A DNA stretch of 64,000 bases from Thermodesulfobium narugense DSM 14796 (GTDB taxonomy: Bacteria; Thermodesulfobiota; Thermodesulfobiia; Thermodesulfobiales; Thermodesulfobiaceae), in assembly GCF_000212395.1 (NCBI RefSeq), contig NC_015499.1, forward strand, positions 895,501 to 959,500, given 5' to 3'. This document shows, piece after piece, positions 56,781 through 61,165 of this stretch. The stretch's first letter is position 1. Every line of letters starts with the position of its first letter. A model generated the notes under the pieces. That model saw only the letters and a list, made by a program, of their open reading frames with translations, was not told the origin of the DNA and searched no databases. Both the position numbers and the translations under genes were made by a program.

Positions 56781-56905
56781 ATTTATGCTCCTTATAAACA
56801 ATTTTAGGAACTATTATAACTCAGTTTTAAAATTTTTCTTTTAAAATGCAACAGTAAGCAACAAGCAAATCAGAATTTTTCACAAAATTGTTATAAAATA
56901 TTATT

Positions 56906-57955
56906 ATGAATTACTTTAACTTTATATCATTTTTAATAGCTTTTCTTGGATTTCAAATTTTAGCGATTGGTTCTATAAGAATAAAAAACGTATTAACTCT
57001 AATTACTACTTTTCTTATTTTAAGTGCTTTAAACTTTCTGCCTTTAGCTTTTTTTTACATATTAAACTTACAAATTAACGTTATATATTTTATATTTTCA
57101 TTATTAGCGCAATCAATAATCATAACTCAGTTCATTGAAAAAACTTCAATAAAGATTATTTTAGTATATTCAATATTTCAAGCCTTATTGATTTATCCAT
57201 TTTATTCTTTTTTATTTTTATTATTCTTAAAAATATTCAGCATTTATCAGTCGGATCATTTCACTTTCATTTTCTTGGTAGCACTATACTCTTCAATATC
57301 CAGTCTTTCTGTTAGTCAGTTTATTGGACCACGTATTGGAAGATTTACAAAGGATGGAAGGCCCATGGCAATACCTGGAAATAATATAATATTTATTTAT
57401 TTTGGTTCATTGACTTTCATATTTTCTATAATAAACTTCTTTCAGGAATTTGATCCCCATTGGTTACAATTTGTTTTTTCAAATTTTTCTTTATCAATTT
57501 TAGCTAGTTCACTATCTTCTATCTTTATCGCAAAAAAAATAGATCCCTTAATTTTAATCTCATCACTTTTTTCATTTATGATATTTACTGTAGCTAGTAA
57601 TTTAATTAGTCCACCATATGTTGTTTTGGCTTTAACGTTTATAATATCATTTATAAATATATATATACAAAACAAAGTAGAAATAAAATTTTTGTTTGAT
57701 GACCCGCTTTTTCTTACAGTGCCAGTTGCAATAAGTCTTATTTCTTTAATAATTATTTTTAGCTTAATAAGTGGATTTGGTGTTCTTTTTATTTTTATTA
57801 TTTCTACCGGTTATATCTGGTTATCAAATTTAATTATCATAAAACTAATAAATAAATTCTCAAGCTTAAGATATCATCCTAATCAGGAAGAAATTGGTTC
57901 TGATCTTTATGAAATTGGTTATGAAGTAAATCCAAAAATATTTAAGGATTTTTGA
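56906..57955 (+). CDS. Ammonium-transporter (Amt) homologue without twin histidines
   Basis: A 349-residue membrane protein with about ten hydrophobic segments. Several Amt motifs are recognisable in order: FIEKTSIKIILVYSIFQALLIYP aligns to the AERxxF...LVYP region, IGPRIGRFTKDGRPMAIPGNN to the GPRxG...P-x-N segment, LFDDPLFLTV to DDPxDVFGVH, and LRYHPNQEEIGSDLYEIGYE to the cytoplasmic tail of Amt. Counting from these, Ala126 and Val274 stand where AmtB has its pore histidines H168 and H318, so classical ammonium conduction is unlikely. Its 3' end overlaps the ANTAR regulator gene on the opposite strand by 14 bases. It may act as a sensor for the kinase encoded next door (inference). TGTTATAAA at 56889-56897 suggests a leaderless start. 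Confidence 0.65.
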   Translation: MNYFNFISFLIAFLGFQILAIGSIRIKNVLTLITTFLILSALNFLPLAFFYILNLQINVIYFIFSLLAQSIIITQFIEKTSIKIILVYSIFQALLIYPFYSFLFLLFLKIFSIYQSDHFTFIFLVALYSSISSLSVSQFIGPRIGRFTKDGRPMAIPGNNIIFIYFGSLTFIFSIINFFQEFDPHWLQFVFSNFSLSILASSLSSIFIAKKIDPLILISSLFSFMIFTVASNLISPPYVVLALTFIISFINIYIQNKVEIKFLFDDPLFLTVPVAISLISLIIIFSLISGFGVLFIFIISTGYIWLSNLIIIKLINKFSSLRYHPNQEEIGSDLYEIGYEVNPKIFKDF

Positions 57956-58571
57956 TCTCCTCAGGTATACTCTTAGTTTTTAAAATCAACTCAGAAAGCT
58001 CTTTTAAAGAAATTCTATTTTTCATTGAGTATTCTTGCATCCTTTTGTGTATCTCGTTTTCGCTCAAGCGAGTTTGTTCTATTATAAATAGTTTTGCACG
58101 ATATAGCGAATTTTTCGTTTTAATTGACTCTTCAAGCTCAAAATTTTTTTCTTTTAAAATTTTATTATCTTTGTATCTTTCAAATGCTAAGAGAATAGCG
58201 CTCTTCAGTTCGCTAATTCTATATGGTTTTAGTAAGTAAGAAAAAGCGCCAATTTTAGATGCTCTTTCTATAAAATCTTTATTGTTATAAGCAGTCAAGA
58301 AAACAACAGCGCCCAAATTTTCATTTTTCAACTTCTCAGCCAACTTTAAACCGTCCATGTGTGGCATCATAATATCTACAATGCTTACATCAGGCCTTAA
58401 TCTTATTATTTCAGAAAATGCCTGAGCACCATCTTTAGCTTCTCCAATAACCTCGAAACCCTCTTTTTCTAATTCTTCCTTCATATCCAGTCTAATCAGA
58501 AATTCATCGTCAGCAATAAAAACTCTTATTTGATTTTTACCTTTAGTTGACTGCTTAATATCACCTTTCAA
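57942..58571 (-). CDS. Response regulator with ANTAR RNA-binding domain
   Basis: A 209-residue two-component regulator. The receiver domain has the acidic pair Asp21-Asp22, the phospho-acceptor Asp66 in SIVDIMMP and Lys115 in LLKPYR. The C-terminal ANTAR domain (RAKLFIIEQTRLSENEIHKRMQEYSMKNRISL) binds tandem hairpins in RNA to prevent termination in known cases (NasR, EutV). TTG 58571 follows GGAGGT. It comes right after the kinase gene and is convergent with the Amt homologue. Confidence 0.9.
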   Translation of the reverse strand: MKGDIKQSTKGKNQIRVFIADDEFLIRLDMKEELEKEGFEVIGEAKDGAQAFSEIIRLRPDVSIVDIMMPHMDGLKLAEKLKNENLGAVVFLTAYNNKDFIERASKIGAFSYLLKPYRISELKSAILLAFERYKDNKILKEKNFELEESIKTKNSLYRAKLFIIEQTRLSENEIHKRMQEYSMKNRISLKELSELILKTKSIPEEIKNP

Positions 58572-58605
58572 GCTTTACCTCCAAAACTTTTATTTAAAAA
58601 TTATA

Positions 58606-59856
58606 TCAAAAGTTTTCTAAGATAATTTCAAACAAAGATCCCTTTTTTGTAGATAGCCGAGTAAAAGAAGCATTCAAACCATCAATTAAAAGGGCCTTTA
58701 CAAGGTCACTGCCGTGTCCCTTAGAAGCAGGCTCTTCAGCTTTAAATTCGCCAAAATCTTGATAGGTAATTCTAATTTTTTCAAAACTTTTAACTATTGA
58801 GATAAATATCTTAGATTGTTCTTCTGTTAAAAATGCATGTTTTACTGAATTTTGCATTAGTTCGATGAGCGCAAGTATTAATAGTAATATTTTTTGATAC
58901 TCACCTATAAGATCACCATAAACGTACAACTTCTCTTTTCCAGAATTAGTTATAACTTTAAACAAGTTCTCTAATAGCGTCTTAAGAGAGACCTCCTCAG
59001 AAAGTTTGATTAATTGTTCGTGTACCTTTGCCAAGCATTCAAGTTTTATTGAAATATCATCAATAAGTTCTCTATCGGATAATCTTCGTGACTTTATATT
59101 TAATATACTTTTAATTATTTGAAGATTATTTTTAATCATATGATTAATTTCTTTCATTGTATTTAATTGTTTTTGTTTTTCAACTTCAAGTAATAATTTT
59201 TTTGATAGGTCCCTTACGACTATAACAAAATATTTCAATTTATTTTCCCTAAAAATTGGGTAAAAGTCTAACTTCGCTATATAATTTTCATTTTTAAGAG
59301 TTTTTGTAAAAAATTTTGGGCTTATAAATTTACTTTTTGAAAGAAATTCTTTCCAAATACCTCTATTGTAAAAATCAATAACATTTGTAGCCTTTGTACA
59401 AATTAGTTTTGCATTAGAGGAAGCATACAATTCATTTGCATTCTCATCTAAAATAACAATTCCATCTTCAGACGAAAAATCACTTTCAAAAAGATTTTTA
59501 CATGGGTTAGAATTAAGAGATTCAAGAATAAGAGTATTTTTAAACTCATTAAATTCTTTAAAATTTGGTGTATTTTTTGTGTTAAATTTGAACATAATAT
59601 ATGTACTGTAATCCAAATAGTAATATTCTTCAAAATATGTGTTGCCTTTTTCTTTATAAAAAAAAGGCAACACATAGTCTTTGTAACGATTTTTTTTTGC
59701 AAAGTCTAAAAATTTTTTTGATATTGTAATTGTTTCCTTATTATTTATGATTGTTTCGATATTATAAGTATTTTCGCCAGAAAAACTTATCAAAAAAACT
59801 TCAACATTAAAAACATTTGATATAAATTTAAATCTCCACTTTTCATTTGATATCAT
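58606..59856 (-). CDS. Sensor histidine kinase, HisKA_2 (PdtaS/EutW) type
   Basis: A 416-residue soluble sensor kinase. A PAS-like region around residues 130-220 precedes the phospho-acceptor motif NHMIKNNLQII (His239). The ATPase domain has the N box ALIELMQNSVKHAF and a G2-like GHGSDLVKALLI. This HisKA_2 class typically partners ANTAR regulators (PdtaS/PdtaR, EutW/EutV), here encoded 34 bases downstream. There are no membrane helices, so an external signal would need a separate receptor. The start overlaps pyrE by four bases. Confidence 0.87.
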   Translation of the reverse strand: MISNEKWRFKFISNVFNVEVFLISFSGENTYNIETIINNKETITISKKFLDFAKKNRYKDYVLPFFYKEKGNTYFEEYYYLDYSTYIMFKFNTKNTPNFKEFNEFKNTLILESLNSNPCKNLFESDFSSEDGIVILDENANELYASSNAKLICTKATNVIDFYNRGIWKEFLSKSKFISPKFFTKTLKNENYIAKLDFYPIFRENKLKYFVIVVRDLSKKLLLEVEKQKQLNTMKEINHMIKNNLQIIKSILNIKSRRLSDRELIDDISIKLECLAKVHEQLIKLSEEVSLKTLLENLFKVITNSGKEKLYVYGDLIGEYQKILLLILALIELMQNSVKHAFLTEEQSKIFISIVKSFEKIRITYQDFGEFKAEEPASKGHGSDLVKALLIDGLNASFTRLSTKKGSLFEIILENF

Positions 59857-60470
59857 AAATTTTGCAATTTCTTACCCTTACCAAGGTCAGTATTAATAGG
59901 AATATTTCTTTTACATAAAGGACATTCTTCAGGTTCATATGATTTAAAATCAATACTTAAAAGGCTTGTCAAAAAGGGCGAGTCTATATCTTTGGCTTTT
60001 ACTTGGCCTCTATTTACCAAGCAGACACTGCCCTGAACAATTCCTTTACAATCTCTTACTGCATTAATTACCTTTTTTATCGATGAACCTGTAGTAAGGA
60101 TGTCATCGACTACTAAAATTTTTTTATTTTCAACAACCTTGTCATAGCCTCTTTTTAAAACTCTTCTCCCGTTTACCTCTTCAGAAAATACAGACAATAT
60201 CTCAGTGTTTTTTAAATTTGAACTGTGATAAGCAATCCATTGTGAAAGTATTACCCCACCAATTGTAGGCGCACAAACAACCTCAAAATCTATATCTTTT
60301 ACCATCATTGACATCTTCAGACAAAGTTCTGAAACGACTTTCGGTTTTATATAGATAGCATCTTTATTAATATAAACTTCACCATGTTTACCAGATGTGT
60401 ATAAAAAATGTCCATAAACAATTGCGTTATGTTTTTTTAAAAAAACTAATACTTCGTTGTTCTCACTCAT
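59853..60470 (-). CDS. pyrE: Orotate phosphoribosyltransferase
   Basis: A 205-residue enzyme adding phosphoribose to orotate to give OMP. The PRPP motif VVDDILTTGSS is intact. An unusual C-terminal tail contains CPLCKRNIP, a CxxC pair that I would expect to bind zinc, known in some OPRT branches. It overlaps pyrF by four bases, and the kinase gene start overlaps its stop by four bases, so pyrimidine synthesis and signalling genes form one operon. Confidence 0.93.
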   Translation of the reverse strand: MSENNEVLVFLKKHNAIVYGHFLYTSGKHGEVYINKDAIYIKPKVVSELCLKMSMMVKDIDFEVVCAPTIGGVILSQWIAYHSSNLKNTEILSVFSEEVNGRRVLKRGYDKVVENKKILVVDDILTTGSSIKKVINAVRDCKGIVQGSVCLVNRGQVKAKDIDSPFLTSLLSIDFKSYEPEECPLCKRNIPINTDLGKGKKLQNL

Positions 60471-61165
60471 TTACTGAACTCCTCAATAATAGATTTTAGG
60501 GCATCTGTTGGTTTTAAATTGTTACCTGGTTTTATCACAGGTCGACCAACTACAATATATGTTGCACCATTTAATTTTGCTTCATATGGTGTTGCAAATC
60601 TCTCTTGATCATATTTGAAACTCCATGATGGCCTTATCCCCGGTACAACAAAGTAGCAATCAGGAAATTCCTTTTTTAAGGGTTTTAACTCATGAGGGCT
60701 ACACACAAAACCTCTTAGTCCAGCATCATAACCAATTCTTACAAATTTTTTTACAATATCAATAGTATCTTCTTGATTATAAATTTTTTTTGCTTCTTCT
60801 TCAGAAAAACTAGTTAAAAGAGTTACCCCTAAAAGTTCGACTTTACTTTTGTTATCAACGCTGTTTAAAGCTTCTTTTATCATTTTTGGACCGCCACTAA
60901 CGTGTATAGTAATCATATCAATATCTAGCTTCGTAAGATTTTTAATAGCTTTACTTACCGTATTAGGAATATCATACAATTTCATATCTAGAAATACATT
61001 ACACTCAAAGGATTTTACAATTCTTACAGATTCTTTTATGCCAATAGAAGAAATCATTTGATAGCCTATTTTAAACCACTTTGTTAAAGATGAGAGTTCT
61101 TTAACTCTTTCTTCTATTTCTCTTAAATCTTCTAGATCAAGTGCAACTATTACATTTGATTCCAA
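60467..61165 (-). CDS. pyrF: Orotidine 5'-phosphate decarboxylase
   Basis: A 232-residue enzyme converting OMP to UMP. The catalytic core VFLDMKLYDIPNTV, the N-terminal VALDLEDL and the C-terminal phosphate site VGRPVIKPGN are all present. It lies upstream of pyrE in the same direction with a four-base overlap. The next upstream gene is the AMIN-domain protein, 50 bases away. Confidence 0.95.
   Translation of the reverse strand: MESNVIVALDLEDLREIEERVKELSSLTKWFKIGYQMISSIGIKESVRIVKSFECNVFLDMKLYDIPNTVSKAIKNLTKLDIDMITIHVSGGPKMIKEALNSVDNKSKVELLGVTLLTSFSEEEAKKIYNQEDTIDIVKKFVRIGYDAGLRGFVCSPHELKPLKKEFPDCYFVVPGIRPSWSFKYDQERFATPYEAKLNGATYIVVGRPVIKPGNNLKPTDALKSIIEEFSK

Follow-up and report, generated by a model that had tools for sequence, protein, structure and literature searches.

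A divergent Amt-family protein of Thermodesulfobium, lacking the ammonium-handling residues, as a possible membrane dock for nitrogen signalling

The stretch of DNA considered here (64,000 nucleotides of Thermodesulfobium narugense DSM 14796, contig NC_015499.1, called "the window" below) carries a gene for a divergent protein of the Amt family, which faces, from the other strand, the genes of a histidine kinase and of a response regulator with an ANTAR RNA-binding domain. This Amt-like protein is a member of the Amt family, and its gene is under purifying selection and not decaying. The explanation that we favour, with a probability of roughly 0.42, is that it is a genus-specific, non-transporting "pseudo-Amt", which would act as a membrane dock for cytosolic nitrogen signalling and would tune the kinase-ANTAR pair.

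The usual reading of an Amt is as a transporter, and in the receptor of this family that has been studied best, the Amt part is joined to the kinase and retains the ammonium-handling residues. If our explanation is true, an Amt scaffold can persist as nothing more than a docking surface on the cytoplasmic side, and the protein is a clean case for separating PII docking from transport. If it also feeds the kinase-ANTAR pair, it would provide a membrane input for a class of soluble antitermination systems in which the signal has often not been found, and would be an Amt receptor with receiver, kinase and RNA output as separate proteins.

Family membership, residues lost and kept, and selection

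In the genome collection compared, the phylum is represented by four genomes, all of the genus Thermodesulfobium, and it is to these that counts out of four refer below; the host genome is complete (1,898,865 bases). The first-pass annotation, made from the letters of the window, had called the protein an Amt homologue and had proposed a profile search and a structure prediction as checks, and both gave a significant Amt match. Against PF00909 of Pfam the protein scores 39 bits (cut-off 23.2, E-value 5.6e-10), its three orthologues are also above the cut-off (27.8-31.3 bits), and the reversed sequence, as a control, has no Pfam match. With the transporter-level model TIGR00836 of NCBIfam it reaches 48.8 bits, far under the cut-off of 343.3. 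Sequence searches of the PDB with the protein, or with a profile of the genus, returned no Amt match, and for lack of such a direct match a fold model was needed. The AlphaFold2 model, computed from 21 sequences (among them one orthologue and 19 viral-contig Amts), has eleven long helices, a predicted local distance difference test score of 79.3 and a predicted template modelling score (pTM) of 0.76. Its significant PDB matches are exclusively Amt/Rh proteins (query template modelling score about 0.6-0.76), the best being Ks-Amt5 (6eu6, E-value 3e-8), Sd-Amt1 (8qj4, 1e-6) and AmtB-GlnK (2nuu, 2e-6). In all, 46 loci (L080-L125) in IMG/VR viral contigs encode Amts, and the 19 of them that were aligned keep the pore histidines.

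The loop-3 signature of the protein fits the Amt subfamily with GPR[IL]GK..DGK..IPGHN (GPR-type below), and the matches outside the genus that we examined are intact, ordinary Amts, mostly of this same type. In the tree the genus clade stands outside all sampled Amts, and the branch that leads to it measures several changes per site, a length at which its position among the Amts can no longer be read reliably. We think it likely that the ancestor was an Amt of this subfamily, which also includes the two Amt receptors with solved structures, Ks-Amt5 and Sd-Amt1.

When the Amt-like proteins are aligned (MAFFT) with Escherichia coli AmtB and the 19 Amts, Ala126 and Val274 fall at AmtB H168 and H318, exactly as the first-pass annotation had read them, and both are invariant in the four genomes; the two pore histidines are retained in all 19 other Amts and in both canonical Amts of the host genome. 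W148, D160, W212, S219 and Q104 (AmtB numbers, as for the residues that follow) are all replaced too, at three of these positions by residues that vary between species (H/K/Q at D160, L/S at W148, F/Y/N at S219), and there are hydrophobic replacements along transmembrane helices 5, 6 and 10, where nearly all the conserved glycines are lost. What remains is the Phe gate (F107, F215), the D310-P311 pair and, in the C-terminal tail, R384, E390, G393, D395, E398 and G400. At positions conserved in at least 70% of GPR-type Amts, and with transmembrane boundaries that we assumed to lie at approximate AmtB values, the protein retains 27 of 55 cytoplasmic, 25 of 130 transmembrane and 4 of 33 extracellular positions (Fisher p 7e-5 and 5e-4). 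Of the 80 extracellular columns 41 are deleted, most extracellular loops being gone. A comparison across the genus shows no variation at 81 of 97 positions on the cytoplasmic side and at 17 of 46 on the outer side (p 6e-8).

The first-pass annotation had gone directly from the missing histidines to a receptor, a step that is not supported: Ks-Amt5 retains its His pair, together with its selectivity filter and Phe gate (PMC5764959), and AmtB without the twin-His conducts (PMC10433425), so that a receptor does not follow from histidine loss, and conduction is not excluded by it alone. It is the loss of the ammonium-handling set, taken with the retention of the inner face, which argues against transport, against external ammonium sensing and for a docking surface.

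As to selection, the orthologues in the three other genomes are 78-83% identical, of equal length and free of stops, and the ratio of nonsynonymous to synonymous substitution (dN/dS), at 0.111-0.125 against two comparison genomes, is similar to that of neighbouring genes. A search of 386 spread genomes found no orthologue outside the genus (the next best match has 48 bits, versus about 690), viral contigs and plasmids gave ordinary Amts at best (48 bits or less), and a pattern scan of genome contigs, with poor patterns, found a genus member only. A long branch followed by constraint suggests a burst of change, which is what a change of role would lead one to expect.

The kinase-ANTAR pair and a candidate RNA target

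The three genes lie where the first-pass annotation had placed them, and its description of the kinase and regulator as a soluble pair like PdtaS/PdtaR (or EutW/EutV), without a membrane sensor, is borne out by the domains and active residues that are present. The regulator's best PDB sequence matches are 1s8n (E-value 4.3e-37, "putative antiterminator"), which we take to be PdtaR of Mycobacterium tuberculosis, and 6wsh, a response regulator that is presumably EutV. Its active-site residues (D21, D22, T93, K115 and the conserved phospho-acceptor D66) are in place, and in an alignment of the four kinase orthologues the HisKA_2 phospho-acceptor H239 and the N-box N336 are conserved. By profile searches, the regulator is the genome's only ANTAR gene and the kinase its only HisKA_2 gene. 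The kinase is judged soluble, as it has no evident membrane helix; in its N-terminal sensor part nothing scores above a Pfam cut-off, and residues 131-218 of the kinase in G003, one of the relatives, give a weak match to PAS_9 (E-value 0.068). As part of the favoured explanation we propose that the pair is a phosphorelay of the PdtaS/PdtaR-EutW/EutV type, acting on RNA.

In published work, ANTAR target RNAs were found mostly upstream of nitrogen genes, among them those for ammonium transporters and P-II (PMC3369931). The host genome has two canonical PII and two canonical Amt genes, the canonical Amts being encoded behind glnB, of another subfamily (GKR..PH loop) and very distant from the Amt-like protein. 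There is also a third, weak PII-like protein (G000:C1:375541-375780, L040; 23.7 bits versus a Pfam cut-off of 25), and one genome, G001, has a single amt gene (L047:7697-9103, minus strand), whose start is like amt1 and whose end is like amt2 of its relatives, apparently through recombination between tandem copies.

A 50-nucleotide leader block upstream of glnB-amt1-amt2 is common to all four genomes; it starts CTTCAGGAACAATGGCGTTCC (G000:C1:1728461-1728509, minus strand, or about 12509-12461 of L010; also in L047, L048 and L049) and lies directly 3' of a sigma-70 type promoter, TTGACA-17-TACTAT. Its first hairpin, GGAAC-AATGGC-GTTCC, stands at the 5' end of the leader and has 5 base pairs and the hexaloop AATGGC, with A1 and G4, in 4/4 genomes, and in one species the pairing is retained by a change from C-G to U-G. 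The second hairpin is A/U-rich, and in three of the four genomes a U-run comes after it. A model of the block, searched genome-wide, finds these four sites only (74-78 bits), the next scoring 21 bits. Rfam has nothing relevant in the window or in the leader. The first-pass annotation had suggested looking for paired ANTAR hairpins near nitrogen genes; a scan of the window and of nitrogen-gene loci with the dual ANTAR hairpin consensus did not give convincingly more hits than shuffled sequence did. The conserved hairpin in the glnB-amt leader is no more than a suggestion that ammonium uptake is under the regulator's control.

Among 145 spread genomes, two unrelated ones, G070 and G088, have an ANTAR gene and an Amt gene no more than 4 kb apart. 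Their orders (gene names by eye) are, in G070, glnA-glnB-amt followed by GAF-GAF-ANTAR, gltD and gltB and, in G088, urea uptake genes, ANTAR, glnA, amt, glnB and ntrC. The urtA start of G088 (L037:6345-6385, minus strand) has what looks like a canonical pair of ANTAR hairpins, with the loops AACGGT and AGCGAC; this genome also has an ANTAR gene in the same urea/glnA/amt cluster.

Weighing the explanations

In the explanation that we favour, a GPR-type Amt would have lost its ammonium-recruitment site, twin-His pore and most of its extracellular loops, and the resulting pseudo-Amt would then have been held stable through a useful cytoplasmic face. We infer that the protein does not transport, and that PII or the kinase docks on it: its cytoplasmic loops and C-terminal tail (where PII proteins, GlnB/GlnK, dock in Amts) would bind PII and/or the kinase, docking would depend on the intracellular nitrogen state, and it would in this way feed or tune the kinase-ANTAR pair, for which the glnB-amt1-amt2 leader is the best candidate RNA target. 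In AmtB, GlnK is known to bind at the cytoplasmic face and to insert its T-loop into the vestibule on that side (PMC10433425). A more specific version, in which a stand-alone, pore-dead Amt is the membrane input of the pair and the nitrogen state at the inner face sets antitermination of glnB-amt1-amt2, is possible, if rather unlikely.

Several points weigh against this explanation or limit its evidence. The fold model does not give fully separate evidence from the sequence alignment, because that alignment contained Amts and the alignment-free model failed (from the single sequence, AlphaFold2 gave an uninformative pTM of 0.24), and a protein on so long a branch may be misaligned in transmembrane helices 9 to 11, which weakens the regional counts there. 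No canonical second ANTAR hairpin was found in the leader, the second loop lacking the A1/G4 hexaloop, and the first hairpin arises by chance in 1.5% (AANGR) to 6.5% (A1/G4) of shuffled leaders; with such frequencies, and with several leaders inspected, it is suggestive only. The co-occurrence that the first-pass annotation had offered as a check does hold, in that the kinase and ANTAR genes are adjacent to the Amt-like gene in 4/4 genomes, but these are close relatives only, which also have most of the surrounding gene order in common, so that the adjacency supports a functional link only weakly. Convergent with the pair, the Amt-like gene moreover has its own upstream region and lies outside the pair's operon, an arrangement that does not imply co-regulation. 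A functional link between the Amt-like protein and the kinase is something that we infer.

The alternative that leaves the pair aside altogether, and that we consider somewhat unlikely, is that the protein is a partner of PII or of the canonical Amts only (as a PII sink, or as a dead subunit of mixed trimers that tunes Amt), its place beside the pair being coincidental. The preserved surfaces are indeed those that serve PII and subunit cross-talk in Amts, the genome has two PII genes and two canonical Amts to offer as partners, and the arrangement with the pair is convergent and not operonic. The canonical Amts, however, are of another subfamily and very distant, which makes mixed trimers less likely, and the cluster with the pair is retained where upstream content differs (in G003 an extra gene lies directly 5' of the Amt-like gene, and the side facing the pair is unchanged).

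The first-pass annotation had instead proposed a receptor that signals to the separate kinase and through it to the ANTAR regulator. A membrane receptor for external ammonium is clearly unlikely, even though the protein shares its subfamily signature with the receptors Ks-Amt5 and Sd-Amt1 (also its closest folds), the adjacency is found in 4/4 genomes and ANTAR systems mostly manage nitrogen (PMC3369931). W148, D160 and S219, recruitment residues that Ks-Amt5 retains (PMC5764959), are lost, and what replaces them varies even among the members of the genus, half of the extracellular columns (41/80) are deleted, and the kinase is unfused, with no evident co-transcription; with recruitment residues lost or unfixed and cytoplasmic surfaces preserved, external sensing is the least likely form of signalling. 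Residual conduction, by a twin-His-less channel for hydrated ammonium or another small solute, would agree with the Phe-gate residues that remain and with the channel-like conduction of hydrated NH4+ by twin-His-less AmtB variants (PMC10433425); we hold it very improbable in view of the loss of D160, W148, W212 and S219, the hydrophobic replacements along transmembrane helices 5, 6 and 10 and the near-complete loss of the conserved glycines there. A decaying pseudogene or spurious reading frame, which the very long branch from other Amts might bring to mind, has next to no probability: equal length, absence of stops, 78-83% identity and a Pfam match above cut-off in 4/4 genomes all speak against it, and the substitution pattern (dN/dS about 0.12) rejects it.

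Gene layout and comparison with known systems

Features of the Amt-like gene and its neighbours (positions in the window)
Feature	Position	Strand	Basis or remark
Amt-like coding sequence, 349 residues, 11 predicted helices	56906..57955	+	PF00909 (E-value 5.6e-10), AlphaFold2 fold
Ala126 codon (AmtB H168 position)	57281..57283	+	MAFFT with AmtB and 19 Amts
Val274 codon (AmtB H318 position)	57725..57727	+	MAFFT with AmtB and 19 Amts
Cytoplasmic loop 3, GPRIGRFTKDGRPMAIPGNN, residues 141-160	57326..57385	+	best preserved Amt signature; 11/14 Amt-conserved positions retained
Amt-type cytoplasmic C-terminal tail, from LRYHP, LRY..NQEEIGSDLYEIGYE, residues 321-349	57866..57952	+	near-invariant across the genus
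3' overlap (14 bp) of convergent Amt-like and regulator genes	57942..57955	.	gene coordinates
Response regulator, receiver and ANTAR, 209 residues, phospho-acceptor D66	57942..58571	-	PF00072, PF03861 above cut-off
ANTAR RNA-binding domain	57981..58136	-	35.8 bits, profile search
HisKA_2/HWE-type histidine kinase, 416 residues, judged soluble	58606..59856	-	PF07568 (E-value 9.1e-11), PF07536 (E-value 1.9e-7)
HisKA_2 dimerisation/phospho-acceptor domain	58945..59151	-	profile search
pyrE	59853-60470	-	PF00156
pyrF	60467-61165	-	named by eye from sequence

The 3' overlap of the Amt-like and regulator genes has 14-bp equivalents in the relatives (L007 8741-8754, L008 4803-4816, L009 4045-4058). 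The frame of the Amt-like gene opens just 3 codons 5' of its ATG and no Shine-Dalgarno sequence is recognisable there; about 10 bases 5' of the ATG (window 56880-56906), in the relatives as well, we noted a TATAAAAT-like box, and for these two reasons the mRNA may be leaderless. On the other strand, pyrF-pyrE lie upstream of the kinase gene with 4-base overlaps, in an order retained in the relatives, and are probably in one transcript with the kinase-regulator pair. This close succession of pyrimidine synthesis genes and a signalling pair on one strand (58606-61165, minus) is found in 4/4 genomes.

Compared with known systems, the protein resembles the GPR-type members of Amt/Mep/Rh in its 11-helix fold, its loop GPRIG..DG...IPG.N, its ER/EK loop, its YP and DDP motifs and its C-terminal tail, but it has 349 residues instead of about 450, and is without the twin-His, the recruitment site and most extracellular loops. 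With Ks-Amt5 and Sd-Amt1 it shares the loop-3 signature and the best structural matches, and signalling over transport is plausible for all three. Ks-Amt5, however, is fused to a kinase and keeps all the ammonium-handling motifs (PMC5764959), which are absent here, and Sd-Amt1 has longer chains (644-661 residues) and keeps the His pair, whereas the Amt-like protein ends after the Amt tail and, unlike these receptors, has no output domain. Compared with ANTAR target RNAs, which have dual hairpins with A1/G4 hexaloops, the glnB-amt leader has the first hairpin, and a second with a non-canonical loop. Finally, a soluble HisKA_2-type kinase beside a receiver-ANTAR regulator is what is found in PdtaS/PdtaR of mycobacteria and in EutW/EutV of Enterococcus; the pair described here differs from these in that its kinase N-terminus is without a Pfam domain, and in that it stands behind pyrF-pyrE and faces the Amt-like gene.

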